This document shows positions 19,103 through 33,167 of a stretch of 33,167 nt of DNA, in pieces. A model generated the notes under the pieces. It had not been told where the DNA came from and did not search any database. It was given only the letters and a program-made list of their open reading frames with translations. The position numbers were made by a program, and so were the translations under genes. The number at the start of each line of letters is the position of its first letter. Position 1 is the stretch's first letter. The stretch lies in IMG/VR virus record IMGVR_UViG_3300032240_002076, positions 1 to 33,167 of that record. The stretch is one strand, 5' to 3'. Source of the stretch: a virus.

Positions 19103-19104
19103 TA

Positions 19105-19201: not shown

Positions 19202-19214
19202 CTAGGAGGAAAAA

Positions 19215-19886: not shown

Positions 19887-19894
19887 GCAACGCT

Positions 19895-19920
19895 AGACCT
19901 ACCCGAAAGGGTAGGTTCTG
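19895..19920 (+). terminator. Terminator, cassette 12
   Basis: AGACCTACCC-GAAA-GGGTAGGTTCT. No T-run before the next block. Confidence 0.8.
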
Positions 19921-19927
19921 GCAATTC

Positions 19928-20052
19928 AAAATTAATAAATAAACCGAACAATTAAAAAGAAAACCGCGGCTAGTGATTTGACTAATGTAGCGAAGTGTGA
20001 AAGACTAGAACCGAGAGGGTAAGTCTGCGGGAACAGGTTCGCTTACCCTCTC
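19928..20052 (+). promoter_or_regulatory. Cassette 13 promoter element and 5' hairpin
   Basis: Block at 19928, TTGACT at 19978, -10 AAGACT at 20001, hairpin GAGAGGGTAAG (20013) with CTTACCCTCTC (20042-20052). The loop holds TCTGCGGGAACAG, shared with cassette 18. Confidence 0.9.
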
Positions 20053-20088
20053 AACTTATCCACCCACTAAACAACTAGGAGTAAAAAA

Positions 20089-20583: not shown

Positions 20584-20590
20584 TCCCCAC

Positions 20591-20627
20591 CAGCAGCCTA
20601 CCCGAAAGGGTAGGTTGTTGGCGTTTT
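20591..20627 (+). terminator. Terminator, cassette 13
   Basis: CAGCAGCCTACCC-GAAA-GGGTAGGTTGTTG, then GCGTTTTT. Confidence 0.87.
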
Positions 20628-20630
20628 TAA

Positions 20631-20725
20631 AAAATTAATAAATAAACCAAACAATTAAAAGAAGAGCTGGTGTGCGACTATTTGACTAGCACGGCAAAGT
20701 GTGAAAGACTAGGTGTGTAAGCACC
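20631..20725 (+). promoter_or_regulatory. Cassette 14 promoter element and 5' hairpin
   Basis: Block at 20631, TTGACT at 20682, -10 AAGACT at 20705, small hairpin GGTG-TGTAAG-CACC (20712-20725). Confidence 0.87.
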
Positions 20726-20746
20726 ACTAATCAACTAGGAGATAAA

Positions 20747-21034
20747 GTGAAATACACACCACAGCAATACGCAGACGCAGTAATCAAGGAAATCTACAAA
20801 GTAGAGAACCTTTACAACCTAGCACCTGCCCTCGCCTATGTAGCAACCAAACTTGGTATTTGGGCAAGTAAAAAAGCCGAAATCGCAATTTGGGCAACTG
20901 ACGGAACCGAAGAACACGCAGCAAGAAATTACGCTGAGTGGGAAATCGCAGACACAAAGTTCAAAGCATACCTAATCGCTTTCAACACCTTACAAGCAAG
21001 ACTTCAAGAGTTTGTAATGGAAGTGGAACTATGA
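20747..21034 (+). CDS. Hypothetical helical protein, cassette 14 gene 1
   Basis: The 95-residue protein starts at GTG after CTAGGAG. It is almost wholly helical and Ala-rich (APALAYVATKLGIWASKKAE). The stop overlaps the next start (ATGA). The plan resembles small phage proteins with paired helices, but no family is recognised. Confidence 0.68.
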   Translation: MKYTPQQYADAVIKEIYKVENLYNLAPALAYVATKLGIWASKKAEIAIWATDGTEEHAARNYAEWEIADTKFKAYLIAFNTLQARLQEFVMEVEL

Positions 21035-21162
21035 GTGTTTGGTGTCCAGAGTGCGATGAAGAAACCACACAAGCCACGCTAGACAAGTATGGTATGTGCT
21101 ACAACTGCGAAAAGCAGATGTGTCCCGAGTGTGCCAGAGTGTTCTGCGACCACGACCAGTAA
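21031..21162 (+). CDS. Tiny zinc-finger protein, 43 residues, cassette 14 gene 2
   Basis: CPEC, CYNC, CPEC and a final C-x-H give seven Cys and a His in 43 residues, ample for two zinc sites. It is coupled to the upstream gene by an ATGA overlap. Unknown role. Confidence 0.72.
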   Translation: MSVWCPECDEETTQATLDKYGMCYNCEKQMCPECARVFCDHDQ

Positions 21163-21168
21163 AATCTG

Positions 21169-21204
21169 CCAGCCTATCCGAAAGGGTAGGCTGGTTTGGT
21201 TTTT
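21169..21204 (+). terminator. Terminator, cassette 14
   Basis: CCAGCCTATCC-GAAA-GGGTAGGCTGG, then TTTGGTTTTT. Confidence 0.88.
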
Positions 21205-21206
21205 GT

Positions 21207-21285
21207 AAAATTAATAAATAGACCAAACAATTAGAAAGAAAGCGCGACCCTCTGATTTGACTAATCACGGAAAGTGTGAAAGACT
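21207..21285 (+). promoter_or_regulatory. Cassette 15 promoter element
   Basis: Block at 21207, TTGACT at 21257, -10 AAGACT at 21280. TGATT and AATCA flank the -35 as an inverted repeat. A long structured leader follows. Confidence 0.88.
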
Positions 21286-21549
21286 AGTATCAACAAGGAA
21301 GCGACGGCTGACTTGGAGTGTGGCTGAACAACCTCAATCGTCAGATGGGGAGGTAAGGCAATGTCGGATACTAGCGTATCGTCTTAGCGGACAAACGGCA
21401 GGTGTGCTGAAAAGCGGGCTTAGAACCGAACTGACTTGGCACTAGTGGTAAAACGCAATCCACTCACTCACTATAAAACCCCACCTGAGTATGTGGGAAA
21501 GCACCAAAAATATAAACTGCTCACTCAAACAAACAACTAGGAGAAACAA
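21286..21549 (+). ncRNA. Long structured leader RNA or small RNA, ~260 nt
   Basis: CTAGTATC (about 21285-21292) pairs with GATACTAG (about 21367-21374), enclosing CGAC/GTCG and CTGAC/GTCAG pairings. Further downstream GTGG and CCAC enclose an A-rich loop near 21444-21462, and CCCAC pairs with GTGGG near 21481-21500. No start codon with a Shine-Dalgarno lies inside. It is far longer than the usual 20-60 nt leaders of the array. It could be an attenuating leader for the gene at 21550 or an independent RNA; I match it to no known family. Confidence 0.55.
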
Positions 21550-21753
21550 ATGGAAGACCCAAAATACCCAGAAGTCAAAGTTCAGTTAGTAGGACTTGAC
21601 GGAAACGCTTGGTCTATTATGGCAAGAGTTTCATCAGCACTAAAAAAGGCAGGAGTTTCGGAGGACGAGGTTTCTGAATACCTGACCGAAAGCCAGTCGG
21701 GAGATTACGACAACTTGCTACGCACTGCTATCAAGTGGGTTAGCGTAGATTAG
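21550..21753 (+). CDS. Small conserved phage protein, cassette 15
   Basis: The 67-residue protein reads VKVQLVGLDGNAWSIMARVS then ALKKAGVSEDEV and SGDYDNLLRTAIKWV. This pattern (a strand with L.G.DGNA, a helix, then SGDYD.LL..A..WV) is one I know from many short hypothetical proteins of phages and mobile elements; its function is not established. CTAGGAG lies upstream. Confidence 0.75.
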   Translation: MEDPKYPEVKVQLVGLDGNAWSIMARVSSALKKAGVSEDEVSEYLTESQSGDYDNLLRTAIKWVSVD

Positions 21754-21757
21754 CAAA

Positions 21758-21785
21758 AGACCCTAGCCGAGAGGCTAGGGTTTCT
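21758..21785 (+). terminator. Terminator, cassette 15
   Basis: AGACCCTAGCC-GAGA-GGCTAGGGTTTCT. Confidence 0.85.
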
Positions 21786-21792
21786 GCGTTTC

Positions 21793-21893
21793 AAAATTAA
21801 TAAATAGACCGAACAATTAAAAAGAGACCGGCTACCGACTATTTGACATAGTTCGGTAAGTGTGAAAGACTTAGAGTGTGGAAAGTATCCACA
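21793..21893 (+). promoter_or_regulatory. Cassette 16 promoter element and 5' hairpin
   Basis: Block at 21793, TTGACA at 21843, -10 AAGACT at 21866, hairpin TGTGGA-AAGTA-TCCACA (21877-21893). ACCGACTAT and ATAGTTCGGT form a dyad across the -35. Confidence 0.9.
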
Positions 21894-21918
21894 AGCACCA
21901 CCCAACTAGGAGAAACAA

Positions 21919-22218
21919 ATGGAACTACTACCCGAAAGCGAGAAAGCAAAACTCGCTAAGTGGAACGAAACCGAAGGTATGGACCTCGGTAAAGTTATGG
22001 CAACTGTCAAGTTCTTCTGCCCTTGGTCCAACTGGACTTGGTATGCGGCAGAGTTTGACGGAGAAGACTTGTTCTTTGGTCTTGTTGATGGCTTAGAAAA
22101 AGAACTTGGCTATTTCTCGCTGAAAGAGCTAAGCGACCTTACAGGTCCTATGGGTCTCAAAATTGAACGCGACCTTTATTGGACACCAAAGGACTTAGGA
22201 ACACTTATCCACTCCTAA
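21919..22218 (+). CDS. DUF2958 family protein, cassette 16
   Basis: The 99-residue protein matches my memory of DUF2958: MELLPESEKAKL at the start, then VKFFCPWSNWTWYAAEFDG, FFGLVDGLEKELGYFSLKEL and IERDLYWTPK. DUF2958 proteins occur on plasmids, integrative elements and phages and have no assigned activity. The whole family length is present. CTAGGAG precedes the start. Confidence 0.85.
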   Translation: MELLPESEKAKLAKWNETEGMDLGKVMATVKFFCPWSNWTWYAAEFDGEDLFFGLVDGLEKELGYFSLKELSDLTGPMGLKIERDLYWTPKDLGTLIHS

Positions 22219-22271
22219 CCAGACTGCCCTACCTAGATAATCCCAGTTATCTAGGTAGGGTTCTGGCTTTT
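22219..22271 (+). terminator. Terminator, cassette 16
   Basis: CCAGA and CCCTACCTAGATAA pair with TTATCTAGGTAGGG and TCTGG; TTTT follows. Confidence 0.88.
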
Positions 22272-22274
22272 GTA

Positions 22275-22375
22275 AAAATTAATAAATAGACCAAACAATT
22301 AAAAAGAGATCCGCGTGGTGCTATTTGACTTATGCGGTGAAGTGTGAAAGACTGATAGCGTAGAAAGCCCTCTAC
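22275..22375 (+). promoter_or_regulatory. Cassette 17 promoter element and 5' hairpin
   Basis: Block at 22275, TTGACT at 22325, -10 AAGACT at 22348, hairpin GTAGA-AAGCCC-TCTAC (22360-22375). Nearly identical to cassette 19 from block to hairpin. The leader to 22429 continues another 54 nt. Confidence 0.88.
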
Positions 22376-22429
22376 AACAAGACGCAGACTTGCTAAACTG
22401 CCCCTTAGTTCCACCGAGAGGAGGACAAA

Positions 22430-22690
22430 ATGGTAATGTTCAAGTTCATTAGCGACCCTGGACACGGCTGGTTAGAGGTTAGTCTGAAAGACTTCCCTTT
22501 CGCCCAGCGTTCAGCAACAGGGTGCGGCTACAAAAATGGCGACTTTATTTATCTGGAAGAAGATGTTGAAGCAAACGACTTTCTGGTAGAACTTCGCCAA
22601 CGCGGTATTGCCTTCGACATCACAGAAGAAATTCTGAATGACGAATGGGAAGGTCGCGACTACGAACGCAACCGAGTGTTGAAGAAGTAG
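22430..22690 (+). CDS. Conserved hypothetical phage protein, cassette 17
   Basis: The 86-residue protein begins MVMFKFISDPGHGWLEVSL and contains GDFIYLEEDVEANDFL. I recall the same pattern (F..D.GHGWLEV ... YLEED.DA..F) in widely distributed short phage proteins with no assigned function. GAGAGGAGG is a strong ribosome site. The C-terminus is basic. Confidence 0.75.
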   Translation: MVMFKFISDPGHGWLEVSLKDFPFAQRSATGCGYKNGDFIYLEEDVEANDFLVELRQRGIAFDITEEILNDEWEGRDYERNRVLKK

Positions 22691-22697
22691 TCCCTAG

Positions 22698-22728
22698 CCT
22701 AGTCTGTCCGAAAGGACAGGCTAGGTTT
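22698..22728 (+). terminator. Terminator, cassette 17
   Basis: CCTAGTCTGTCC-GAAA-GGACAGGCTAGG, then TTT. Confidence 0.86.
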
Positions 22729-22737
22729 CCGCATTTC

Positions 22738-22862
22738 AAAATTAATAAATAGACCTAACAATTAGAAAGAGAGCTCCACGAAACAGTTTGACTTATGCGG
22801 TGAAGTATGAAAGACTAACATCGGGAGAGCAAGTCTGCGGGAACAGTTCTACTTGCTCTCCC
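22738..22862 (+). promoter_or_regulatory. Cassette 18 promoter element and 5' hairpin
   Basis: Block at 22738, TTGACT at 22788, -10 AAGACT at 22811, hairpin GGGAGAGCAAGT (22823) with ACTTGCTCTCCC (22851-22862). The loop shares CTGCGGGAACAG with cassette 13 while the stem differs. Confidence 0.9.
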
Positions 22863-22892
22863 ACCTATTCACCCGCAAACCTAGGAGTAAAA

Positions 22893-23021
22893 ATGGAACT
22901 AGATGATGTAACAGCAGCAAAAATCAAGCGTATCTACGACATGTATTACGCTGATGAAATCACTGTTGATGACGCAATACACAAGTTGGAACTAATCATC
23001 AACGGAGTAGAAGATGAGTGA
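22893..23021 (+). CDS. Tiny helical protein, 42 residues, cassette 18 gene 1
   Basis: MELDDVTAAKIKRIYDMYYA onward, two acidic helices. CTAGGAG precedes ATG 22893; the longer frame starts at the -35 box. The end overlaps the next gene by eight bases. Confidence 0.65.
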   Translation: MELDDVTAAKIKRIYDMYYADEITVDDAIHKLELIINGVEDE

Positions 23022-23265
23022 AATCACCAAATCAAAAAGTGAGCCATACTTCAACGACCTTCTAAGTAACCACATTGGACACAAAATGGAAGTTGTTGAG
23101 TATCTATGCGGTATCTGCGGTAAGACCAGCGACTATCTATTGAGATGTATTCAAGAGCAGATAGACGACACTTGCTACAATGACCCAGTAGGTATCGCTA
23201 GAGAGTTGACTCCAGAGTGCGGTTGCTCTCTCGCTGACCTGAAAGTGGCTTGGATGCCATCCTAA
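23014..23265 (+). CDS. Small zinc-binding-type protein, cassette 18 gene 2
   Basis: The 83-residue protein has CGIC near 32-35 and later C, C and CGC positions, consistent with one zinc site. It is coupled to the tiny gene upstream. Unknown role. Confidence 0.65.
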   Translation: MSEITKSKSEPYFNDLLSNHIGHKMEVVEYLCGICGKTSDYLLRCIQEQIDDTCYNDPVGIARELTPECGCSLADLKVAWMPS

Positions 23266-23272
23266 CCAATAC

Positions 23273-23312
23273 TAGCCCTAGCCCCTGAAAAGGGGTTAGG
23301 GTTAGCTCTTTT
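23273..23312 (+). terminator. Terminator, cassette 18
   Basis: TAGCCCTAGCCCCT pairs with AGGGGTTAGGGTTAGCT around GAAA-type loop; CTTTT follows. Confidence 0.87.
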
Positions 23313-23413
23313 AAAATTAATAAATAGACCGAACAATTAAAAAGAGATCCGCGTGATGCTATTTGACTTATGCGGTGAAGTATGAAAGACTGATAGCGTA
23401 GAGAACTCTCTAC
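23313..23413 (+). promoter_or_regulatory. Cassette 19 promoter element and 5' hairpin
   Basis: Block at 23313, TTGACT at 23363, -10 AAGACT at 23386, hairpin GTAGAG-AACT-CTCTAC (23398-23413). Compared with cassette 17 both arms of the hairpin gained a pair. Confidence 0.9.
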
Positions 23414-23438
23414 ACTAAACCAACCCGAAAGGAACATA

Positions 23439-23912
23439 ATGTCTATACTAGATATTATTTCTGCTCTACCGCTTGTTTATCTTGCGGTTGCTACAATACC
23501 GCTTGTAGTCATTGACTACAAACTACACCGCTTACCGAACAAAATTGTTCTACCATTCGCAGCGCTAGCGTTCATTACCGCCATTGTTGTAAATGTTGCC
23601 ACTCAAAGTTGGATAAACCTACTGCTCGCAGTTGGCTTGCCGTTTGTATGGTTCATCATTGGACTTGTTCTAAACTACCTTGATGTAGTTGGAATGGGTG
23701 ATGTGAAGTTCGTTACTGCCCTACTGCTCGCTGTTGGTGTGTATTCACCGATTATTGCTCTGCTAATCATTCCACTATCAGTTCTATTCTCAATAATCTC
23801 AATTGTTTATATGGCTATGCGGAAAGCACCAATAGGAACAAGTGTGCCACTTGGTCCTTGGCTAATACTCTCAACTTGGCTAGTAGTCGCAGTATTCAGT
23901 TCTGCTTGGTAA
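23439..23912 (+). CDS. Type A24 prepilin peptidase-like membrane protein, cassette 19
   Basis: The 157-residue protein is hydrophobic with about five or six membrane segments. Two aspartates sit where the catalytic pair of A24 (TadV/CpaA/PilD-type) peptidases lies: Asp26 in VVIDYKLHRLPN and Asp88 in VGMGDVKF, the GxGD motif. These membrane enzymes cut the leader of type IV or Tad pilins; the short length fits TadV/CpaA, which lacks the methylase domain. Both key residues are intact, so activity is likely. It is unusual in a phage. The start has CGAAAGGA instead of the CTAGGAG of its neighbours, hinting at separate origin. Confidence 0.85.
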   Translation: MSILDIISALPLVYLAVATIPLVVIDYKLHRLPNKIVLPFAALAFITAIVVNVATQSWINLLLAVGLPFVWFIIGLVLNYLDVVGMGDVKFVTALLLAVGVYSPIIALLIIPLSVLFSIISIVYMAMRKAPIGTSVPLGPWLILSTWLVVAVFSSAW

Positions 23913-23917
23913 GCACT

Positions 23918-23962
23918 GCCAGCCCTGCCACCTGAAAAGGTGAGCAGGGTTGGTGGCTTTTC
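23918..23962 (+). terminator. Terminator, cassette 19
   Basis: CCAGCCCTGC and CCT pair with AGG and GCAGGGTTGG around a GAAA-type loop; CTTTT follows. Confidence 0.85.
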
Positions 23963-23963
23963 A

Positions 23964-24064
23964 AAAATTAATAAATAGACCTAACAATTAAAAAGAGATC
24001 CGCCACGGTGCGTTTGACTACTATGGCTATCTATGGCAGACTAATAGTGTAAGCACCCGCTTAC
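23964..24064 (+). promoter_or_regulatory. Cassette 20 promoter element and 5' hairpin
   Basis: Block at 23964, TTGACT at 24014, -10 CAGACT at 24037, hairpin GTAAGC-ACCC-GCTTAC (24049-24064). Confidence 0.88.
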
Positions 24065-24089
24065 GCTAAATCTAAACTAGGAGTAAATT

Positions 24090-24536
24090 ATGGCAGAGCC
24101 CATTGTTTATGAGTTGTCTAGTGATTGCCGTTGCACTGAAACGGACGATGACGGCAACGAACTGAAAGACGATAACGGTTATCCCCTTGCGGCTGACTAT
24201 TGCCACGGTTGTTGGGAAGACGACCTAGGCAATACAGAAAGCGAAATAATCAAGCCTTGGCTAAAGGCTAATGGTATCACCGAAGATGATTACATTGCGG
24301 TAAGCGTTGAAAGAGCGACTTGGCAAAATGTAAGTGGAAACGGAGTTGGTAAGGCTGACCTCAAGAGTATCTTGAAGATGCTAACCTTCAACGGTGATTG
24401 GACACTTGAATTCACCTATGACGGTGATAAGACCCTAATCGCTAAGCGTTGGAGCCACGATGAGCCTATGGGAACATCGCCCTTCTTGTTCAGAAAAGCG
24501 ACTGAACACGACATAGAGAATTGGGAACATCGCTAG
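24090..24536 (+). CDS. Hypothetical acidic protein, cassette 20
   Basis: The 148-residue protein has CRC near 14 and CHGC near 38-41, which may hold a metal, then an alpha/beta region (DDYIAVSVERATWQNVSGNG, WTLEFTYDGD). CTAGGAG lies upstream. No family recognised. Confidence 0.68.
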   Translation: MAEPIVYELSSDCRCTETDDDGNELKDDNGYPLAADYCHGCWEDDLGNTESEIIKPWLKANGITEDDYIAVSVERATWQNVSGNGVGKADLKSILKMLTFNGDWTLEFTYDGDKTLIAKRWSHDEPMGTSPFLFRKATEHDIENWEHR

Positions 24537-24543
24537 ACCAAAC

Positions 24544-24580
24544 AGCGACAGCCCTGCCGAAAGGCAGGGTTGTTCGCAGC
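24544..24580 (+). terminator. Terminator, cassette 20
   Basis: GCGACAGCCCTGCC pairs with GGCAGGGTTGTTCGC around GAAA. Confidence 0.84.
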
Positions 24581-24584
24581 TTGA

Positions 24585-24724
24585 AAAATTAATAAATAGA
24601 CCGGACAATTAAAAAGAGAGCTCCGTCAGCCCGTTTGACTAAGTGCCGTATCTATGAAAGACTAGACCCACAACTAAATAGCGTGAGTGGTTAGGCTCAG
24701 TTGCGAAGCCTTGCCTAACCACTC
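24585..24724 (+). promoter_or_regulatory. Cassette 21 promoter element and 5' hairpin
   Basis: Block at 24585, TTGACT at 24635, -10 AAGACT at 24658, hairpin GAGTGGTTAGGC (24685) with GCCTAACCACTC (24713-24724), a perfect 12-bp stem. Confidence 0.9.
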
Positions 24725-24757
24725 AGCCCCCAACCTATCCACTAATCTAGGAGCAAA

Positions 24758-24988
24758 ATGAGTAAAACTCAAATCGCTACGGCTTGGACTTGGTTTGTCG
24801 CAAGATACACCAAACTAGGCTACAAATCACTCAACCAGTTCGCTAACGCAACAGGATTACAGAAATCCAGCCTTAGCCGATACTTCCACCTACAGCGTGA
24901 AATCCCATCAGGTATGATGGCGACACTCTGCCGAGAACTCAAGACCACTCCAAATGAGTTGATGAAAATTATCGGTGCTTGGAAGTAA
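24758..24988 (+). CDS. XRE/Cro-type helix-turn-helix protein, cassette 21
   Basis: The 76-residue protein is one DNA-binding domain: SLNQFANATGLQKSSLSRYF covers the turn and recognition helix (about 25-44), followed by IPSGMMATLCRELKTTPNEL, the usual closing helices. It probably regulates phage or host promoters; it may act within the array. CTAGGAG precedes the start. Confidence 0.82.
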   Translation: MSKTQIATAWTWFVARYTKLGYKSLNQFANATGLQKSSLSRYFHLQREIPSGMMATLCRELKTTPNELMKIIGAWK

Positions 24989-25000
24989 TCACCACCGAGA

Positions 25001-25033
25001 GCCTAGCCCGAAAGGGTTAGGCTTTTGGTTTTT
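25001..25033 (+). terminator. Terminator, cassette 21
   Basis: GCCTAGCCC-GAAA-GGGTTAGGC, then TTTTGGTTTTT. Confidence 0.88.
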
Positions 25034-25034
25034 C

Positions 25035-25113
25035 AAAATTAATAAATAGACCGAACAGATAAAGAGAGATCCGCGGCTTAGTGCTTGACTAAGTGCCGAT
25101 AAAGTGAAATACT
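25035..25113 (+). promoter_or_regulatory. Cassette 22 promoter element
   Basis: Block at 25035, TTGACT at 25085, -10 AATACT at 25108. CGGCTTAGT and ACTAAGTGCCG form a dyad across the -35 (one 2-base bulge). Confidence 0.87.
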
Positions 25114-25242
25114 TGGAGTAGGGTGAAATCACCGTAGAAGTGCTACGGAGCGAGCGAAAGCACAGCCTTAGCGAAGTGAGCAGGAAAGACCTTGCTAGCA
25201 GTTGATTACTGCTCACTTTGCGACTACCAACCTAGGAGAAAA
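25114..25242 (+). ncRNA. Structured leader RNA, ~130 nt
   Basis: Successive stems are GGTGAAATCACC, CGTAG/CTACG, GTGCT...AGCAC, and a long GCGAAGTGAGCAG with CTGCTCACTTTGC near 25174-25222. The ribosome site CTAGGAG lies just after the last stem. It may be a regulatory leader for the gene at 25243. Confidence 0.55.
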
Positions 25243-25449
25243 ATGGAACTATGTAGTAAGTGCCAAGAAGAAGGCAAAGACACAGAGGCTAAATACGCAG
25301 TTTGGGCAATAGCGTATTTTGACCCTACCCTAAAAAAGTTTGTAGGTTGTTGGAATGACGGAACTAAAGTTTGTAAGCCTTGCCTAGACTTTACTCTAAC
25401 TATCCCAACAATTAAAGTTCAGTATCAAATACTAGAAGAAGTCGCCTAG
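25243..25449 (+). CDS. Small zinc-binding-type protein, cassette 22
   Basis: The 68-residue protein has CSKC (4-7) and CKPC near 46-49, a four-Cys ribbon around a beta hairpin (AVWAIAYFDPTLKKFVGCW). ATG 25243 follows CTAGGAG. The longer frame lies in the structured leader. Unknown. Confidence 0.68.
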   Translation: MELCSKCQEEGKDTEAKYAVWAIAYFDPTLKKFVGCWNDGTKVCKPCLDFTLTIPTIKVQYQILEEVA

Positions 25450-25455
25450 CACTTA

Positions 25456-25487
25456 GCCTAGCCCTGCCGAAAGGTAGGGTTCAGGCG
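25456..25487 (+). terminator. Terminator, cassette 22
   Basis: GCCTAGCCCTGCC pairs with GGTAGGGTTCAGGC around GAAA. Confidence 0.83.
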
Positions 25488-25492
25488 CGGCT

Positions 25493-25594
25493 AAAATTAA
25501 TAAATAGACCGAACAGTTAGAGGGAAATCCGTGGCTCGGTGTTTGACTTATGCCGTGAAGTATGAAAGACTTATCTCGGGTAGCGTATCTACCC
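25493..25594 (+). promoter_or_regulatory. Cassette 23 promoter element and 5' hairpin
   Basis: Block at 25493 (variant GAACAGTTAGAGGGAA), TTGACT at 25543, -10 AAGACT at 25566, hairpin GGGTAG-CGTAT-CTACCC (25578-25594). Confidence 0.88.
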
Positions 25595-25630
25595 AAAGCA
25601 TCACCCAAACAACTAACCATAAGGAGTGCC

Positions 25631-25978
25631 GTGAATACTATTCGCGCCTTAGTTGTCCACGCTGACAACACTACCGAGAGAATAGAAGTCGCTGAGACTG
25701 ATTTCTCTACTGCCCTACACGATGCCATTGGTGGCTGGTTTACCCACGTGTCCATAAACGAAACCCTAGATTTCTGGGTTGATGATGAAGGACTACTAAA
25801 AAGCCTGCCACTAAACAGAGTGGCTACTCGGTTCTACTCACTACTGGGAGCAACTAGCCCTATTGTTGGCACTGCCGTATTCACGGGTGGTGGAGACGGA
25901 CACGGTGGAACTATGTCTCTCGATGAGACTAGCATCGAAGCCTTAGAGTTCGCAGCCAAAATGGCTAGCCAGTTCTAA
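25631..25978 (+). CDS. DUF3846-like protein, cassette 23
   Basis: The 115-residue protein starts at GTG after AAGGAG. It reads RALVVHADNTTERIEV, then LHDAIGGWF, WVDDEGLLKSLPLNRVATRF and PIVGTAVFTG. This order (a short strand, a GG turn, DEeG...LPlN..A, IVG...) is the DUF3846 pattern common in actinobacterial phages and plasmids. Function is not established. Confidence 0.8.
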   Translation: MNTIRALVVHADNTTERIEVAETDFSTALHDAIGGWFTHVSINETLDFWVDDEGLLKSLPLNRVATRFYSLLGATSPIVGTAVFTGGGDGHGGTMSLDETSIEALEFAAKMASQF

Positions 25979-25990
25979 TAACCCTTAGCC

Positions 25991-26020
25991 CTAGCCCCTA
26001 GCCGAAAGGTTAGGGGTTAG
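25991..26020 (+). terminator. Terminator, cassette 23
   Basis: CTAGCCCCTAGCC-GAAA-GGTTAGGGGTTAG. Confidence 0.82.
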
Positions 26021-26032
26021 GTGTTGCGCCGT

Positions 26033-26110
26033 AAAATTAATAAATAGACCGAACAGTTAGAGGGAAGCCTGGCGAGCCTGTTTGACTAAGTGCCGATAAT
26101 GTGAAAGACT
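26033..26110 (+). promoter_or_regulatory. Cassette 24 promoter element
   Basis: Block at 26033 (same GAACAGTTAGAGGGAA variant as cassette 23), TTGACT at 26082, -10 AAGACT at 26105. Confidence 0.87.
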
Positions 26111-26232
26111 GAACCCGTCAGGGAAAACCCTGATGCGTTGCTCTGTCTTGTTGTGTCTAACTAAGTTAGAACGGGTAAGAGTGCTGGGTGCCAGTGCCGC
26201 AGAGCAACGCTAACTACAACATAGGAGCAGAA
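26111..26232 (+). ncRNA. Structured leader RNA with possible pseudoknot, ~120 nt
   Basis: TCAGGG-AAAA-CCCTGA (26118-26133) is followed by an 11-bp stem GCGTTGCTCTG (26135) with CAGAGCAACGC (26200-26210). Inside is TCTAAC/TTAGA. ACCCGT (26113-26118) can pair with ACGGGT (26171-26176) in the enclosed loop, which would make a pseudoknot. ATAGGAG and the start follow. Confidence 0.58.
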
Positions 26233-26451
26233 ATGCGCTTTATAGTAAGAGCCTTATTTGGGCTAATGTTCGGTGGCTTCGCCACTCTAAGTATGGAAAT
26301 CAGCAGACGCTACATTGTAGCGTGGAGCTTCACCGATAGAAGTGATGACCTAGTTAGTTATGCTCGCTGGGAAACTATCAGTTGGGCGTTGATGTCCGTT
26401 GCAGTAGTTATCGTAATCTGGGCTTGGGTATCAACCAGAAACGACAAGTAG
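26233..26451 (+). CDS. Small two-pass membrane protein, cassette 24
   Basis: The 72-residue protein has one hydrophobic segment near 4-20 and a second near 47-66 (WALMSVAVVIVIWAWV), joined by a polar aromatic loop. The protein at 27307 has the same plan and similar second segment. ATG 26233 is set by ATAGGAG. It could be a superinfection-exclusion or envelope protein; no family recognised. Confidence 0.7.
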   Translation: MRFIVRALFGLMFGGFATLSMEISRRYIVAWSFTDRSDDLVSYARWETISWALMSVAVVIVIWAWVSTRNDK

Positions 26452-26452
26452 C

Positions 26453-26498
26453 ACCGAGCCAGCCCTGCCTAGCAATAGGCAGGGTTAGGCAGCTCGGT
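26453..26498 (+). terminator. Terminator, cassette 24 (duplicated at 27126)
   Basis: Inner stem CCCTGCCT-AGCAAT-AGGCAGGG with outer CCGAGC/GCTCGG. The same structure ends the gene at 26899. Confidence 0.85.
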
Positions 26499-26598
26499 AA
26501 AATTAATAGATAGACCAGACAATTAGAAAGAGATCCGTTCAGGGTCATTTGACTATGTCTGCCGTTTATGAAAGACTAGCATTACGGGTATGCCCGTA
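26499..26598 (+). promoter_or_regulatory. Cassette 25 promoter element and 5' hairpin
   Basis: Block at 26499 (variant AATTAATAGATAGACC), TTGACT at 26549, -10 AAGACT at 26572, hairpin TACGGG-TATG-CCCGTA (26583-26598). Confidence 0.88.
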
Positions 26599-26615
26599 GA
26601 AAGAAGGTGATTAGT

Positions 26616-26822
26616 ATGACTAACCTAATCTCATTACCAAAATCAGGACTATTCGGGTTTGGCGAGTTCATGGTTGATAAAGTATTCCAGTGTTCATACT
26701 GCTCCAACAACGCAACTAAGTATGTTTGGAGCAAGGACACCGATGGAGCATTCAGCGACATTGAGAGTTTCACTTGCGACAACCACGATGAACACTTCGC
26801 TAAACTCAATGCCAGAGCATAG
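26616..26822 (+). CDS. Small zinc-finger-type protein, cassette 25 gene 1
   Basis: The 68-residue protein has CSYC near 26-29 and a later C and H pair (TCDNHDEH), consistent with one Cys/His zinc site. AAGAAGG lies eight bases before ATG 26616. Unknown. Confidence 0.66.
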   Translation: MTNLISLPKSGLFGFGEFMVDKVFQCSYCSNNATKYVWSKDTDGAFSDIESFTCDNHDEHFAKLNARA

Positions 26823-26830
26823 CACCACTC

Positions 26831-26860
26831 GCCTAGCCCTGCCGAAAGGCAGGGTTAGGC
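26831..26860 (+). terminator. Terminator-like hairpin inside cassette 25
   Basis: GCCTAGCCCTGCC-GAAA-GGCAGGGTTAGGC. It is not followed by a block or promoter, unlike the others. Confidence 0.8.
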
Positions 26861-26898
26861 AACCCCTAACCAGCAGCACCGATAACAAGGAGAACCAA

Positions 26899-27123
26899 TT
26901 GAACCAGCCGAGAAAGTCAGTCATAGTTGTTCGCAGACTACTAGCCAGCGTAGTTATTACGCCCCTAGTTGCCCTTGCCTACTTGCTAATCTATGCCTTG
27001 CTAGTCGCATACGGAGCAACACCGACCAACACCCCAACAGGAATACTACTAGACGCCCTAATGCTAGGAGTATTGGCAAGCCTAATGTTTGCCCTTGCTC
27101 CGTTAGCGTGGAAACGCAAGTAA
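26899..27123 (+). CDS. Small two-pass membrane protein without own promoter, cassette 25 gene 2
   Basis: The frame starts at TTG 26899 after AAGGAG and encodes 74 residues with two hydrophobic segments (ASVVITPLVALAYLLIYALL; LLDALMLGVLASLMFALAPL). Positive residues flank the first segment. No block, -35 or -10 precedes it, so it depends on read-through of the hairpin at 26831, or the promoter was lost. Confidence 0.65.
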   Translation: MNQPRKSVIVVRRLLASVVITPLVALAYLLIYALLVAYGATPTNTPTGILLDALMLGVLASLMFALAPLAWKRK

Positions 27124-27125
27124 GC

Positions 27126-27171
27126 ACCGAGCCAGCCCTGCCTAGCAATAGGCAGGGTTAGGCAGCTCGGT
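27126..27171 (+). terminator. Terminator, duplicate of 26453
   Basis: CCGAGC, CCCTGCCT, AGGCAGGG and GCTCGG in the same order and spacing as at 26453-26498. Confidence 0.85.
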
Positions 27172-27273
27172 AAAATTAATAGATAGACCTGACAATTAGA
27201 AAGAGAGCTCGGTCTGCCTATTTGACTAACTTTACTATTTATGAAAGAATAGTATCGGGTAGCGTATCTACCC
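27172..27273 (+). promoter_or_regulatory. Cassette 26 promoter element and 5' hairpin
   Basis: Block at 27172 (AATAGATAGACC variant), TTGACT at 27222, -10 AAGAAT at 27245, hairpin GGGTAG-CGTAT-CTACCC (27257-27273) identical to cassette 23. Confidence 0.88.
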
Positions 27274-27306
27274 AAAGCACCACCTAACTACTACTAAGGA
27301 ATTCAA

Positions 27307-27525
27307 ATGAACTCTTTATTCTTTACCCGTGTTGCCTTGTTCATCTCACTTAGCGTTTCATCAGGTATCTCTATTACCCTTGCTAAGACTAACTACGAGC
27401 AATGGTTCTACTACGACAGCACCAGAGCCCTTGATGCTTATGTTTCTTGGACAGCCATAACTGCCGTATTACTAACCCTAACTCTCGCTAGTTTCGCTTG
27501 GATTTGGAAAGCGTTTAGAGACTAG
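27307..27525 (+). CDS. Small two-pass membrane protein, cassette 26
   Basis: The 72-residue protein has hydrophobic segments near 5-25 and 49-68, the latter ending LASFAWIWKAF. The polar loop with paired aromatics (YEQWFYYDS) and the plan match the protein at 26233, so they are probably paralogues. AAGGA precedes the start. Confidence 0.7.
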   Translation: MNSLFFTRVALFISLSVSSGISITLAKTNYEQWFYYDSTRALDAYVSWTAITAVLLTLTLASFAWIWKAFRD

Positions 27526-27530
27526 CCAGC

Positions 27531-27577
27531 ACCGAGCCAGCCCTAGCCGAAAGGCTAGGGTTATGGCGTTGCTCGGT
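27531..27577 (+). terminator. Terminator, cassette 26
   Basis: CCCTAGCC-GAAA-GGCTAGGG inside an outer CCGAGC/GCTCGG stem. Confidence 0.86.
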
Positions 27578-27670
27578 AAAATTAATAGATAGACCAGACA
27601 ATTAGAAAGAGAGCTCGGTCTGCCTATTTGACTATGCTCGGTATCTATGAAAGAATAGTTGCGTAAGCAA
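27578..27670 (+). promoter_or_regulatory. Cassette 27 promoter element and 5' hairpin
   Basis: Block at 27578, TTGACT at 27628, -10 AAGAAT at 27651, short hairpin TTGC-GTAA-GCAA (27659-27670). Block and upstream part match cassette 26 closely. Confidence 0.86.
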
Positions 27671-27997: not shown

Positions 27998-28032
27998 GCC
28001 TAGCCCTACCTAGCGATAGGTAGGGTTTAGGC
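27998..28032 (+). terminator. Terminator, cassette 27
   Basis: GCCTAGCCCTACCT pairs with AGGTAGGGTTTAGGC around AGCGAT. Confidence 0.85.
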
Positions 28033-28041: not shown

Positions 28042-28123
28042 AAAATTAATAAAAGCTTCGCTCGCTTCGCTCGCTTCGCAAATAGACCACGCTTCGCTCG
28101 CTTCGCTCGCTTGCTAACAATTA
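28042..28123 (+). repeat. 28th cassette block, split by two GCTTCGCTC-rich inserts
   Basis: The pieces AAAATTAATAAA (28042-28053), TAGACCA (28083-28089) and AACAATTA (28116-28123) join to give exactly the block consensus. Between them lie inserts of about 29 and 26 bases made of the repeating CGCTTCGCT word. No -35/-10 pair at the normal distance follows, so the promoter is lost. The non-coding stretch 28033-28308 continues with more GCTTCGCTC copies near 28162, 28213 and 28238. Confidence 0.85.
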
Positions 28124-28308
28124 CATTAGTCACCCTGGCTTGCTCGGTAAATATTACATACTCGCTTCGCTCGTTTTGGTCAAGCCCGCATCCGCGGCCT
28201 TTCCCTGATAGTTCGCTTCGCTCACACTGATTTTTATGCTCGCTTTGCTCGCTTGAAAGCGCCGTTATGGTATAGAATATATCTAGGCCCTTACATGAAT
28301 GGAATCAA

Positions 28309-28530
28309 ATGGAACCAAGTATCAGTAGATCAAATGAGCAAGCCATGGCTTTTATCATGGATAGATATAAAAGCTACATCGCTGGTAAGTATGATCTAAG
28401 CTCTCAAAGTAAGCGCGAATTGCTAGAAATCGAAGCAAATTTTAGAATCTGCGAAAAAGATCTTGATTACGAAAAAAACCACGGATTGCTTAGTTTTAGG
28501 AAGACTGCGGCCGTTCTTTTAGGTATTTAA
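28309..28530 (+). CDS. Hypothetical helical protein, 73 residues
   Basis: The protein is helical and charged (MAFIMDRYKSYIAGKYDLSS as residues 13-32, ELLEIEANFRICEKDLDYEK). Upstream TATAGAAT could be a -10. There is no clear Shine-Dalgarno (GGAATCAA), so the start is tentative. It lies just beyond the cassette array and lacks its element. Unknown. Confidence 0.55.
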   Translation: MEPSISRSNEQAMAFIMDRYKSYIAGKYDLSSQSKRELLEIEANFRICEKDLDYEKNHGLLSFRKTAAVLLGI

Positions 28531-28560
28531 ATAATAAAAGACAGACTTTTTTGACTTTTT

Positions 28561-28574
28561 TGACCCTAAGGTCA
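28561..28574 (+). promoter_or_regulatory. Possible operator dyad
   Basis: TGACC-CTAA-GGTCA is a perfect 5-bp inverted repeat in the AT-rich leader before the NlpC/P60 gene. The gap 28531-28683 contains no gene. Confidence 0.35.
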
Positions 28575-28683
28575 CAAATTACCCCTTAAAATAGATAAAT
28601 GCAGACTTCGCTTTGCATATGGGAGAACCCAAACAATAACGACCGAGTACTAACTCACTTTAATCAGGAAAGGTAGGTCGCCA

Positions 28684-29262
28684 ATGAGAAAGTTCGCAAC
28701 ATTACTAGTAGCAACAGTCTTGACTGTTGCTGGATGCTCGGCTTCTGCAGCCATTGCATCTAAAAATCAAGTAGCGAAAACAGTAGCAACACCGGTTTTG
28801 GTAAAAACAAAACCTCTAACTACAACACAGTTAAAGTTTATGGCTAGTCCAGGGGCTTCAAAAGAAGTTCGTAACTATGCCAAAATGACACTGCTAGTTA
28901 GGTACCTGAAGTCTCGCGTAGGAAGAACATCTTATGTCTTCTCAGGCGATACAACCAGGGGATGGGACTGCTCCGGAATGGTTCGCTGGACTTATAAACA
29001 GCTCGGTATAATCCTTCCTCACTCTGCTAACAAACAAGGACATCTTGGTAGTCGAGTATCTAACCCTAACGTTGGAGATATCGTTGTATTTGCATACAAT
29101 GGATCTACCAACTTCTATCACTCAGCAATCTATATCGGAAATAACAAAGTAATCAATGCTAACTTTGGATCCGGAACAACTATAGTAGAACCCCTATCTA
29201 ACTATAGAAATAGTCAGATTAGATTCGTACGGGTAATAAGGCAGGCAGTATCTCCACAATAG
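28684..29262 (+). CDS. NlpC/P60 cell-wall hydrolase with lipoprotein signal
   Basis: The 192-residue protein begins with a lipoprotein signal (hydrophobic 4-16, lipobox TVAGC, Cys18), implying export and anchoring in the host membrane. An NlpC/P60 domain occupies about 68-187: the nucleophile is in GWDCSGMV (Cys96) and the His in FYHSAIYIG (His146). Such enzymes cut peptide bonds in peptidoglycan. A membrane-anchored form is unusual for a phage endolysin, which normally acts only after holin action, so it may modify or protect the host wall, or block later infection. A strong terminator follows. Confidence 0.87.
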   Translation: MRKFATLLVATVLTVAGCSASAAIASKNQVAKTVATPVLVKTKPLTTTQLKFMASPGASKEVRNYAKMTLLVRYLKSRVGRTSYVFSGDTTRGWDCSGMVRWTYKQLGIILPHSANKQGHLGSRVSNPNVGDIVVFAYNGSTNFYHSAIYIGNNKVINANFGSGTTIVEPLSNYRNSQIRFVRVIRQAVSPQ

Positions 29263-29287
29263 TAGATAGATACTTCTAACCATAAAG

Positions 29288-29316
29288 AACCCCTAGCTAA
29301 TACCTAGGGGTTTTTT
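29288..29316 (+). terminator. Intrinsic terminator
   Basis: AACCCCTAG-CTAATAC-CTAGGGGTT followed by TTTT. Confidence 0.92.
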
Positions 29317-29332
29317 ATGGTAGGATTCAACT

Positions 29333-29491
29333 ATGGAACCTCTACTAGCTGCCCTTGCGGTTATACTTATTATCATCCTAGTAATAGCTTATGCTATCGC
29401 TGGACTAGTTTGGCTAACCAAGATGATTAAGAAGGCTAGCGATAACCTATCCCATGATGTTTTAGATTTGGATTATACTCATGATGACTGA
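29333..29491 (+). CDS. Tiny membrane protein 1 (holin candidate)
   Basis: A 52-residue frame with one strong membrane segment (LLAALAVILIIILVIAYAIA, residues 4-23) and a polar acidic tail. TAGGAT precedes the start. It overlaps the next small membrane gene by eleven bases. Three such genes between two wall proteins suggest a holin or spanin-like set, but size and topology are the only evidence. Confidence 0.62.
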   Translation: MEPLLAALAVILIIILVIAYAIAGLVWLTKMIKKASDNLSHDVLDLDYTHDD

Positions 29492-29672
29492 CTCGTACCT
29501 TTGGCTACTTCTTCTAGCCATAGTCTTTGGAATACTTGCGGGTATACTTAAAGCTTTTCTTTCTAACCTACGGTCTAAAAGAAAAGCTCAAGCGCCGTTA
29601 CTTGGCGTTATACTTCCTAAAACTCAAAACCTCGTATCTAAACAAAACTCAAAACATAAGGATGAACTTTAA
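29481..29672 (+). CDS. Tiny membrane protein 2
   Basis: The 63-residue protein has one membrane segment (LWLLLLAIVFGILAGILKAF, residues 7-26) then a basic tail (LRSKRKAQ...KHKDEL). The start may be 29481 or 29484. It overlaps both neighbours, so the three genes are translated as a unit. Confidence 0.65.
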   Translation: MMTDSYLWLLLLAIVFGILAGILKAFLSNLRSKRKAQAPLLGVILPKTQNLVSKQNSKHKDEL

Positions 29673-29842
29673 TGATTAAACTTTTGGCAACTCTAAGAAA
29701 CCTTGTTTGGCCTTCTATTCTTTCTCTACTCTTTGTAGTCTTAGCTATCCTGGTCGCTTTGATTTCTCCAAGTAACCTAGCTCTTGTATTATCTTTTGGC
29801 TTCGCTTCAATAGCTTTCGCTATTTTAGCTCAACGCGCTTAA
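29672..29842 (+). CDS. Tiny membrane protein 3
   Basis: A 56-residue frame starting in a TAATG overlap. It has two hydrophobic segments (ILSLLFVVLAILVALI; LALVLSFGFASIAFAILA) and basic ends, the topology of a class II holin. AAGGATGA lies upstream. Unproven. Confidence 0.65.
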   Translation: MIKLLATLRNLVWPSILSLLFVVLAILVALISPSNLALVLSFGFASIAFAILAQRA

Positions 29843-29855
29843 GGAACTTCTAGCC

Positions 29856-30227
29856 ATGACTGAAGATCAGAATAAATATAAACAACCTATTCCTGTAGAT
29901 ATAGAAAAATTCTATGCTAGCTTACCTGAACCAGCTGGCCCTGCGGTAGTAAGCAATGGGCGCACCGATGAAGTTAGACTAGATGCTTGTATATTCAAGA
30001 ACATCCATGCTAGAAAATCTCTAACCATACATCATCTTCAACGTCGCCTAGCTGAGCTAGGCTATGTCGAAGCTAGCCAAGACAAAGATGGATGGTATGG
30101 CGATCATACTAAGACAGCTATTATTAGATTCCAAGCAAGCAAAGATCTAGATGCCACTGGCAATATAGATGCGGTAACCTTCTTGGCTATCTTTGATGGC
30201 GACGTAAACGTCACAGCCATCGTCTAG
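29856..30227 (+). CDS. Peptidoglycan-binding-domain protein
   Basis: The 123-residue protein has a polar N-terminal half and a C-terminal PG_binding_1-type domain (HHLQRRLAELGYVEA, GWYGDHTKTAIIRFQ, DATGNIDAVTFLAIF). The D-G-W-YG-D..T..AI..FQ pattern is standard. No catalytic domain is present, so it may target the wall together with a partner such as the lysin or be a structural protein. AAGGAAC precedes ATG 29856. Confidence 0.75.
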   Translation: MTEDQNKYKQPIPVDIEKFYASLPEPAGPAVVSNGRTDEVRLDACIFKNIHARKSLTIHHLQRRLAELGYVEASQDKDGWYGDHTKTAIIRFQASKDLDATGNIDAVTFLAIFDGDVNVTAIV

Positions 30228-30253
30228 CCATCGTCTAGCCATCGTCTAGCCAT
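30215..30253 (+). repeat. Tandem repeat of AGCCATCGTCT
   Basis: Three 11-bp units in a row plus a partial fourth. The first unit contains the last codons and stop of the upstream gene, so the 3' end of that gene has been copied in tandem. The final unit runs into CTAGCCATAA, a word repeated near 32258, 32440 and 33113. Confidence 0.8.
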
Positions 30254-30314
30254 AAACTATGCCCCTTGCCTCGCCCTGGCCGGCCGAGACTGGAGTTGAA
30301 CTTTTCTATAGTTC

Positions 30315-30407
30315 TGACTTAGACTTCTCGACTAAAGCATTCGCTATAGAGCCCTTGGCTCTATCAACTTCGTTGACGCTCATTATTTAGTCAAGAGATC
30401 TAAGTCA
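30315..30407 (+). repeat. Large imperfect inverted repeat enclosing two hairpins
   Basis: TGACTTAGACTTCTCGACTA (30315 on) matches, with three mismatches in 22, the reverse complement of 30386-30407. Inside are ATAGAGCC-CTT-GGCTCTAT and TCAAC-TTC-GTTGA. DNA or RNA here could fold into a branched cruciform. The gap 30228-30515 has no gene. Confidence 0.65.
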
Positions 30408-30500
30408 CAAGCAAAGCTTGATTATTCAAAAGGCTTTCTGATGAAGTTGAACTGCATCTCGAGGCTGTACAATAGATACACAAGGCTTATATATCACATG

Positions 30501-30514
30501 ACTGGAGTTGAACT
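30501..30514 (+). promoter_or_regulatory. ACTGGAGTTGAACT leader with the TerL ribosome site
   Basis: GGAG lies eight bases before ATG 30516 and so fixes the TerL start. The same 14 bases occur at 30289, 31946 and 32231, three places with no start codon at suitable spacing. TATATA lies just upstream of this copy and of the last two. Confidence 0.7.
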
Positions 30515-30515
30515 G

Positions 30516-31907
30516 ATGGCCAAAAGCTTGATGGAACAGATTGCTTTACTTCCCCCTGATGAGCAGTTGCTTGCTTTGAATGGGATGGACCCAGAGACAT
30601 TGCTTTGGGATTGGTCTGTTTGGGGAAGACCTGAGCAACAGGCACCTGAAGGCGACTGGGCTATCTGGGCATACATAGCTGGACGTGGAGCTGGCAAGAC
30701 TAGGACAGCAGCTGAATGGGTAAGAGAGCAGGCCAAGTATACAACTGAAGGTCAACGTCGTTTTGCTCTTGTAGCAAGAACAGCAGCAGACGTTCGTGAC
30801 GTTATTGTTGAAGGTGAATCAGGTATCATGAATGTCACTCCCCCAAGTGAGAGACCTTTGTATGAACCTTCTAAGAGAAGACTGACCTGGCCTAATGGTA
30901 ACGTTGCTACATGCTTCACAGCAGATGAGCCTGACTCACTTCGTGGTCCTCAGTTCACTCATGCTTGGGGGGATGAGATAGCTGCTTGGAGACAGACACC
31001 TGACGCAGCAGGTATGACTGCCTTTGATAACCTTCGCGTTGGTACTCGTCTTGGTCGTAATCCTAAGATCATGGTTACTACTACACCTAAGAGAGTACCT
31101 CTTCTTTATAAGTTGATTGAAGAAGCAAAGACTGGTCGTGTAGTTATCACTCGTGGTTCTACTCTTGATAACTCAGGTAACCTATCAAGTGCTTACCTAG
31201 ATGCAATCACTGGAGTATATGCTGGAACTAGATTGGCTGCCCAGGAACTCTATGGAGAAATGCTTGATGATGTTGAAGGTGCTCTATGGACTGAAGAAGT
31301 CATTGAGCAATATAGGGAATCAGTAATGCCTTTAGGTACTCCACTTCGTATTATTGGAGTAGACCCTTCTGTTGCTGAGAATCCTAGAGACGAGTGTGGC
31401 ATTGTTGTCTGTGCATCAACAGCAGATAGAGACTTATTCAAACGTCAAGCTTGGGTACTTGAAGATGCAACTGTTCTTGGCTCACCTGAAAAATGGGCTA
31501 ACAAGGTTGTTGAGATGGCTCGTAAGTGGGGATGTCCTGTAGTTGCTGAAGTCAATCAAGGTGGAGCATTGGTTCGTAATGCTATCAATGCTATTGACCC
31601 TAACATTAAGGTACTTGAAGTCCATAGCAAACATGGTAAAGCACTTCGTGCTGAGCCTGTAACTCTTGCTTATGAGCAAGGTCGTATTCATCACGTTGGT
31701 TATTTGGCTGAACTAGAATCCCAGATGATATCTTGGATTCCAGGAGAGACTAAATCTCCAGATAGAGTAGATGCTTTAGTTCATGCTATGACTGCCCTGC
31801 TTATCAAGCCTCCTAGTGGATTTACAGGTGGAAAGATTACTGCTAGGTCTATGGCAGGAAGAAAAATAGATAATGGTCGTATTTCTAGTATATTTAGAGT
31901 TAGATAG
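30516..31907 (+). CDS. terL: Terminase large subunit
   Basis: The 463-residue protein packages phage DNA. The ATPase part has Walker A AGRGAGKT (55-62) and Walker B THAWGDE (148-154). The nuclease part has IIGVDPSV with Asp283, VAEVNQGG, and DRVDALVHAM near the end, giving the usual acidic set. Length and order fit the Terminase_6 type found in actinophages. ATG 30516 is chosen for the GGAG eight bases upstream; the longer frame from 30441 reads through the repeat leader. It stands alone, with non-coding repeats on both sides, and no portal gene follows in the window, which is unusual. Confidence 0.93.
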   Translation: MAKSLMEQIALLPPDEQLLALNGMDPETLLWDWSVWGRPEQQAPEGDWAIWAYIAGRGAGKTRTAAEWVREQAKYTTEGQRRFALVARTAADVRDVIVEGESGIMNVTPPSERPLYEPSKRRLTWPNGNVATCFTADEPDSLRGPQFTHAWGDEIAAWRQTPDAAGMTAFDNLRVGTRLGRNPKIMVTTTPKRVPLLYKLIEEAKTGRVVITRGSTLDNSGNLSSAYLDAITGVYAGTRLAAQELYGEMLDDVEGALWTEEVIEQYRESVMPLGTPLRIIGVDPSVAENPRDECGIVVCASTADRDLFKRQAWVLEDATVLGSPEKWANKVVEMARKWGCPVVAEVNQGGALVRNAINAIDPNIKVLEVHSKHGKALRAEPVTLAYEQGRIHHVGYLAELESQMISWIPGETKSPDRVDALVHAMTALLIKPPSGFTGGKITARSMAGRKIDNGRISSIFRVR

Positions 31908-31945: not shown

Positions 31946-32001
31946 ACTGGAGTTGAACTTCGTTCAAGTGCAAAGCCTCAAATCCTTGAGGCTTTGCTTG
32001 G
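31946..32001 (+). other. Repeat leader copy and strong hairpin after terL
   Basis: ACTGGAGTTGAACT (31946-31959) is followed by GCAAAGCCTCAA-ATCC-TTGAGGCTTTGC (31970-31997), a perfect 12-bp stem. No T-run follows. It may end or stabilise the terL mRNA. Confidence 0.65.
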
Positions 32002-32028
32002 TCATTGCTTCGCAATGCCCTCTAATTT

Positions 32029-32140
32029 CAGTTGAACTTCGTTCAACTGGCTCACTTCGTTCGCTTATTGCTCGCTTCGCTCGCTGGTCGCTTCGCTCCC
32101 TTAGTATTCGCTTCGCTCATTGCTCGCTTTGCTCGCTTAG
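32029..32140 (+). repeat. GCTTCGCTC-family repeats and TTCG-loop hairpins
   Basis: GTTGAA-CTTCG-TTCAAC (32032 on) is followed by at least five copies or variants of CGCTTCGCTC between 32051 and 32140. The same word splits the block at 28042. The whole 31908-32635 stretch (728 bases) carries no gene I can support. Confidence 0.75.
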
Positions 32141-32282
32141 ATACTATAAAATCAAAAGCACCTATAAAAGCAAAAGTAAAGGCTAATAAAAAGCCTATAA
32201 AAGCAAATAAAGCCTTCTACTATATATAAGACTGGAGTTGAACTTATACTCACCTAGCCATAAGCCTAGCCATAAAATTCTA

Positions 32283-32917: not shown

Positions 32918-33167
32918 CGGGCAGGTTAGGTTAGGTCAGGGGGTCAGGTCAGGGTCAGGGGTCAGGTCTATACGGGCAGGTCAGGTCAGGGTCAGGGGTC
33001 AGGTCAGGTCAGGTCAGGGTCAGGGGTCAGGTCTATACGGGCAGGTCAGGGTCAGGGCTATACGGGCAGGTCAGGTCAGGGGGGTCAGGTCAGGTCAGGG
33101 GCTAACCATAAATCTAGCCATAACTTAGGCAGGTCAGGGGGTCAGGTCAGGGTCAGGTCAGGTCAGG
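32918..33167 (+). repeat. G-rich GGTCAGG tandem repeat tract
   Basis: About 250 bases are built of GGTCA, GGGTCA and GGGGTCA steps, broken by TATACGGGCAGG, which occurs three times. One interruption near 33100-33130 carries TAACCATAA and TAGCCATAA. There is no gene. The tract runs to the window end, so its full length is unknown. It could be a contig or genome end, an origin or a packaging signal. Confidence 0.85.

Follow-up and report, generated by a model that had tools for sequence, protein, structure and literature searches.

Promoter-terminator cassettes known as PeSLs have been described in T4-type phages (Arbiol 2010, Comeau 2014; both as cited in PMC4503421). A different kind of signal is found in the promoters of phage N4, where extrusion of the promoter hairpin requires a closing C:G pair and a loop with G at its 5' and A at its 3' end (PMC4496689); the same C-GNA-G rule describes unusually stable DNA minihairpins (PMC6479982). 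The locus reported here lies in a viral contig of 33,167 bases from a freshwater phage of actinobacteria, the whole of which is called the window below. From 11.8 to 27.6 kb the window carries cassettes between small genes, in the order hairpin terminator, block (AAAATTAATAAATAGACCnAACAATTA), A/G-rich DNA and TTGAC. The block was found in 26 copies with at most three mismatches (0.05 expected from shuffles) and in a one-base-shifted copy at 11820, and these 27 intact blocks (11820, 12341, 13369 ... 27578; 11820-27604, plus strand) each have a terminator on one side and a TTGAC promoter on the other.

TTGAC lies 49-51 bp from the block start in all 26 aligned copies, within a promoter resembling TTGACt-N17-nnnnCT, and because this distance is constant the block may be where a phage-specific activator acts. 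None of the 27 intact blocks contains a hairpin. The block is nearly uniform inside one phage and different among phages (window 11820-27604; L139, L058, L060, L062, L065; L numbers denote the 80 loci returned by a terminase scan), and looks as if it had been homogenised within each of them. A manA RNA motif (Rfam RF01745) was found between array cassettes at 21297-21474 on the plus strand, with a score of 62.2 bits where the gathering score is 55.2.

The array ends with a 28th block (28042-28123, plus strand) that is split by two GC-rich units, according to direct reading, shuffles and comparison with relatives. Its left part, AAAATTAATAAA (28042-28053), is followed by unit 1 (28054-28082; AGCTTCGCTCGCTTCGCTCGCTTCGC plus AAA, 29 bp), the middle part TAGACC (28083-28088), a single A at a variable column of the block (28089), unit 2 (28090-28115; CGCTTCGCTCGCTTCGCTCGCTTGCT, 26 bp) and the right part, AACAATTA (28116-28123). 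Leaving out 28054-28082 and 28090-28115 gives a block that matches the consensus at every base, and the pattern ATTAATAAA-n-TAGACC-n-AACAATTA, present once in the window, was recovered in none of 300 dinucleotide shuffles. A preliminary description of this DNA had already read the locus as the end of the array, interrupted by two near-identical word runs of about 29 and 26 bases with no base lost at the second site, and these points were borne out: the block is the last of 28, the consensus is complete across site 2, and the inserts have a 22-bp run in common. The boundaries of unit 1 are ambiguous, as it can equally be read as a 26-bp insert flanked by AAA on both sides.

Each insert consists of the same 9-mer, GCTTCGCTC, repeated in tandem about three times. 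Allowing up to one mismatch, this word has 16 matches in the window against 6.4 expected, with clusters at 28055-28250 and 32074-32134. Outside the window the tandem 25-bp form was encountered in only five genome stretches and three viral contigs; since it is so rare in public genomes and viruses, local growth is the most likely source of the window's tandem form. A host origin of the tandem word was considered and rejected, the five genome matches being scattered over unrelated bacteria. An Rfam search found no family at the split block, a BLAST search with the region as query matched none of 50,697 phage records, exact searches for the block in viral contigs returned scattered single matches only, and the block and word patterns were absent from the records of NlpC-protein relatives.

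The split block is preceded by a normal terminator (CCCTACCTA-GCGA-TAGGTAGGG followed by TTT; 28004-28025, plus strand), as in the other cassettes, but has no TTGAC at the usual distance, and the small gene on its 3' side (28309-28530, plus strand, 73 aa; orthologues in L057, L058, L145, L065 and L069) has its own GGTATAGAAT-type start region, which is kept in relatives and is not the cassette promoter. For these two reasons the split block is considered a terminal orphan of the array. A decayed promoter on its 3' side, resembling the 27578 cassette (TGGCTTGCTCGGTA), was considered and discarded, as 39 of 200 shuffles scored equally high. Word search and comparison with relatives revealed further GCTTCGCTC-type units (28164; 28211-28225, GTTCGCTTCGCTCAC; 28242) in a noncoding element (28164-28250, plus strand) that is strongly conserved with L058 and partly with L065 and L069.

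A second word cluster lies downstream of terL (31953-32134, plus strand) and holds perfect C-TTC-G hairpins (31953, 32003, 32029) together with CTCGCTTCGCTCG words. Near terL, ACTGGAGTTGAACTT is repeated several times (window 31948-32240; L060 9520-10130; L058 9770-11520) and is also found at the likely TTG start of the L058 terL; it may be a late translation start that recurs and is followed by short, word-rich reading frames. After terL, each phage of the group has a short-word tandem array of its own (GGTCAGG, GCAGGTGA, TTGGGC, TAGCTCAGCTC), as seen at 32922-33167 in the window, 12340-12599 in L058, 12060-12197 in L063 and 12417-13120 in L074, and many contigs end there.

The phages nearest to the window are L057 and L058 and a third contig, L145 (95% in TerL and 79% in DNA over 28172-31901). 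TerL relatives are actinophages, namely Actinomycetia phage DSL-LC01 (78%) and Microbacterium phages (62-63%). L057, L058 and L145 have a homogenised block of their own, AAATTAATAAAAACAAAATnAAACAAyTAGAAGATTAC, in about 26 copies. In the orthologous terminal block of L058 and L145, which reads AAATTAATAAAAACAAAATAAAACAA, ACGCAACCTCGCTTCGCTCGGCCGCGT and ACAATTAC in succession, site 1, filled in the window, is empty, and site 2 is filled in L058 by a different unit, ACGCAACCTCGCTTCGCTCGGCCGCGT, holding the GCTTCGCTC-type word once. The uninterrupted 28th block that the preliminary description had proposed to look for in related phages was thus found with respect to site 1 and not to site 2; the relatives covering the split block itself are the L058 species and L065/L069 only. 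It had also been proposed that the word might interrupt other conserved sites, and another L058 block (4924-5094) is indeed interrupted by CTTCG-rich DNA of 100-odd bases, which has a part of the block at either end; the GC-rich element that splits it is also present in L062-L064. Gap-based and HSP-chain searches for CTTCG insertions in all loci gave no clean example beyond coding or repeat DNA; the informative pairs came from aligned cassettes.

In L059, L062-L064, L065, L069 and L070, most cassettes have a small hairpin in the block, flanked by its two AT-rich halves, and the slots of these sister phages hold single, double or triple units. The slot of unit 1 in the window is the one occupied by the hairpins of L059, L062, L065 and L069. 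Stem sequences vary freely with complementarity kept, the constant parts being the closing pair and the loop, which is nearly always C-TNC-G on the coding strand (C-GNA-G on the template) and sometimes C-TNNC-G (template C-GNNA-G); the L061 cassette hairpin has a four-base loop. C-GNNA-G DNA tetraloops are stable as well. With a stem of at least five, C-TNC-G triloop hairpins number 80 in the clade against 2.1 expected, their opposite-strand version (C-GNA-G on the plus strand) 10 against 2.0, and C-TNC-G triloop hairpins in the other TerL clades 9 against 2.9, while the tetraloop version C-TNNC-G reached 22 against 2.0. The N of the loop takes all four bases (CTTCG 31, CTGCG 24, CTACG 21, CTCCG 16). 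Stems covary in the positional set of L062/L161 cassettes, where 12 cells changed on both sides compared to 3.2 in shuffles and none of 500 shuffles equalled this number; in alignment A1 the sequences have CTCCG as their centre, and copies from one phage are non-independent. Four L059 cassettes (4610, 5588, 5801, 6418) carry the hairpin reversed, with GGCGGC-GAA-GCCGCC on the coding strand, and the strand rule of the loop is not absolute. RNA folding was considered as a cause of the words and found to be a weak candidate; a UNCG tetraloop would need another register.

Words and hairpins meet at the array ends of L065 and L069, two phages of about 91% identity that share the DNA downstream of this point. 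L065 reads AAAAATAAAA, then CTCGCTTCGCTCG, then TAAAAAA, and L069 reads AAAAATAA, then ATTTTGCTGCTCCGCAGCAAAAT, then AAAA; CTCGCTTCGCTCG stands in the one where the other has ATTTTGCTGCTCCGCAGCAAAAT, and word and hairpin are therefore alternatives in one slot. The word also obeys the loop rule, TCGC-NNN-GCTC being found with TTC 51 times, TAC 20, TTT 9 and TGC 6 times. A strict Watson-Crick stem in GCTTCGCTC units comprises only two pairs, and both strands fold poorly in the energy model; the template strand, CGAGC-GAA-GCGAG, would, by analogy with known DNA motifs, close via tandem sheared G-A pairs, which are unscored by that model.

Three aligned slots of L065 and L069, with flanks of 85-93% identity, differ by a whole unit: L069 has an extra hairpin unit of about 27 bp, about 18 bp and 13 bp, and L065 has A-rich DNA. 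Together with site 1 of the terminal block, these slots provide orthologous sites in a filled and an empty state. A double-hairpin cassette of L065 has the left neighbour of one L069 cassette and the right neighbour of another. L069 also has two copies of a hairpin-like unit, AAAATGAGCTCGCGCAGCTCGCACTCATTTT (7280-7390), of which L065 has one (7400-7440). The preliminary description had taken the split block as direct evidence that the word family inserts into DNA as discrete units. The filled and empty states of site 1, the three slots and the second split block of L058 support discrete units; insertion as such is not established by them, as the units lack a conserved sequence, target duplications are irregular, and loss from other blocks is as possible as gain because sister phages carry units in nearly every cassette. 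The TerL tree likewise leaves both gain and loss possible, because hairpin-bearing and hairpin-free phages are interleaved in it.

The explanation that we favour, at a probability of roughly 55%, is that the inserts belong to a family of mini-hairpin units that turn over as discrete pieces in the AT-rich cassette blocks, and have themselves grown in tandem. The split block is the terminal copy of the terminator-block-promoter cassette, and, its own promoter being missing, would therefore be free to change. The family would consist of very short, GC-rich units with the loop, C-TNC-G in the coding and C-GNA-G in the template strand, as their common feature. Whole units would be gained, lost, doubled and swapped, and in the window the unit would have expanded by tandem repetition of GCTTCGCTC, about threefold, at two points of one block. 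The template strand would fold in vivo, and the units would probably owe their movement to replication copying or to recombination from cassette to cassette (hairpin-assisted template switching, unequal exchange), not to a transposase.

A possible but clearly less probable history is that an ancestral hairpin unit was lost from the 27 intact blocks by homogenisation between cassettes, the orphan terminal block having kept a degenerate copy; ancestral spacer had also been named in the preliminary description as the reading opposed to insertion. Hairpin units in L070, L065/L069 and L059/L061/L062-064, around the window's branch, would fit such a loss, as would the homogenised blocks of each phage and the position of unit 1 in a slot where sister phages carry C-TNC-G hairpins. 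However, slot 1 is empty in the terminal block of L058, the cassettes of L060, L039 and L068 have no hairpins either, site 2 has no clear counterpart in hairpin cassettes, and the rest of the split block fits the window's own modern consensus.

Somewhat less probable again is neutral low-complexity growth, by which an orphan noncoding array end would gather tandem words through slippage, DNA structure being irrelevant. That both inserts are runs of a single 9-mer, that the exact 25-mer is rare elsewhere and that unrelated short-word arrays follow terL in the group (GGTCAGG, TTGGGC, TAGCTCAGCTC) is in line with this, but a loop rule accepting any N, covarying stems and a clade-restricted enrichment are unexpected from plain slippage, and the same slot holds units across phages. 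We consider it unlikely that the units are a true family of very small mobile elements, similar to SDRs or REPs and served by an enzyme acting in trans. The precise presence or absence of 13-27-bp units, what may be a 3-bp repeat (AAA) at site 1, the ACAA on the flanks of the L058 unit and the precedent of SDR5 of Nostoc, for which precise insertion within HIP1 is cited in PMC4390886, speak for it; the inconstant sequence and ends of the units and the inconsistent target duplication speak against it, and the variable stems favour structure-driven copying.

It is highly improbable that the units, lying upstream of each gene, serve on the template strand as promoters for an RNA polymerase that recognises hairpins as N4 vRNAP does: template-strand C-GNA-G before nearly every gene in L059, L062, L065 and L069 fits the N4 rule, but each cassette already has a sigma-70-like promoter about 50-60 bp downstream, the intact window blocks are hairpin-free, both strands are used in L059, and the one open reading frame searched for an N4-type polymerase, the giant 3289-aa virion-region ORF of DSL-LC01, gave no PHROG or Pfam polymerase match, no PDB match and no motif set. 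This protein (L158 5801-15670) has no strong family match, and by eye it may include an ADP-ribosyltransferase-like and a kinase-like stretch.

Under the favoured explanation, turnover of mini-hairpin units, the odd GCTTCGCTC runs probably belong to a wider family that follows a simple loop rule. The slots, filled in some phages and empty in others, provide a natural experiment on the movement and multiplication of 13-27-bp units, with a bearing on how very small dispersed repeats arise in bacteria and phages. If the units are DNA hairpins, the DNA shape of one strand serves a whole phage clade as a repeated intergenic signal, of which few cases are otherwise known, such as the N4 promoters. 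More tentatively, a clade of freshwater actinophages might carry a modular 13-27-bp template-strand C-GNA-G mini-hairpin in every promoter cassette as a structural DNA (not RNA) signal, spreading as a discrete genetic unit among the smallest known, and the window might have captured a landing in a hairpin-free cassette.

SDRs possess a family consensus. In our units a consensus at dispersed sites, of the SDR or REP kind, was not found, and the stems vary freely. The units resemble Nostoc SDRs (Elhai 2008, via PMC4390886) as pieces of about 25 bp that precisely interrupt a highly repeated motif, HIP1 in that case; unlike SDRs, the window and sister units have only the loop rule and size in common and sit in a phage cassette slot. 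They are short palindromic intergenic repeats like the REP/REPIN elements (PMC3116915), and differ from these in that no REP consensus was seen in them. Like the early promoters of N4 vRNAP (PMC4496689), the units of sister phages present a template-strand hairpin with a 3-nt loop and C-GNA-G upstream of genes, but a sigma-70-like promoter follows each unit, the stem sequence is free and units can be in tandem. The template-strand C-GNA-G hairpin is present in sister phages, and in the window's own units it would form only via non-Watson-Crick pairs; the resemblance to N4 appears limited to structure. In comparison with PeSLs (cited in PMC4503421), the phage of the window is not T4-type, its promoter is not of the T4 early consensus, and an extra phage-specific homogenised AT-rich block lies between terminator and promoter, with C-GNA-G hairpins in sister phages. 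In common with PeSLs, it has an array of small genes and a stem-loop terminator plus promoter as the repeated intergenic unit (27 intact copies), which may also be a site of gene shuffling as in PeSLs. Although phage type and promoter set it apart from PeSLs proper, the whole array appears to work as PeSL cassettes do.
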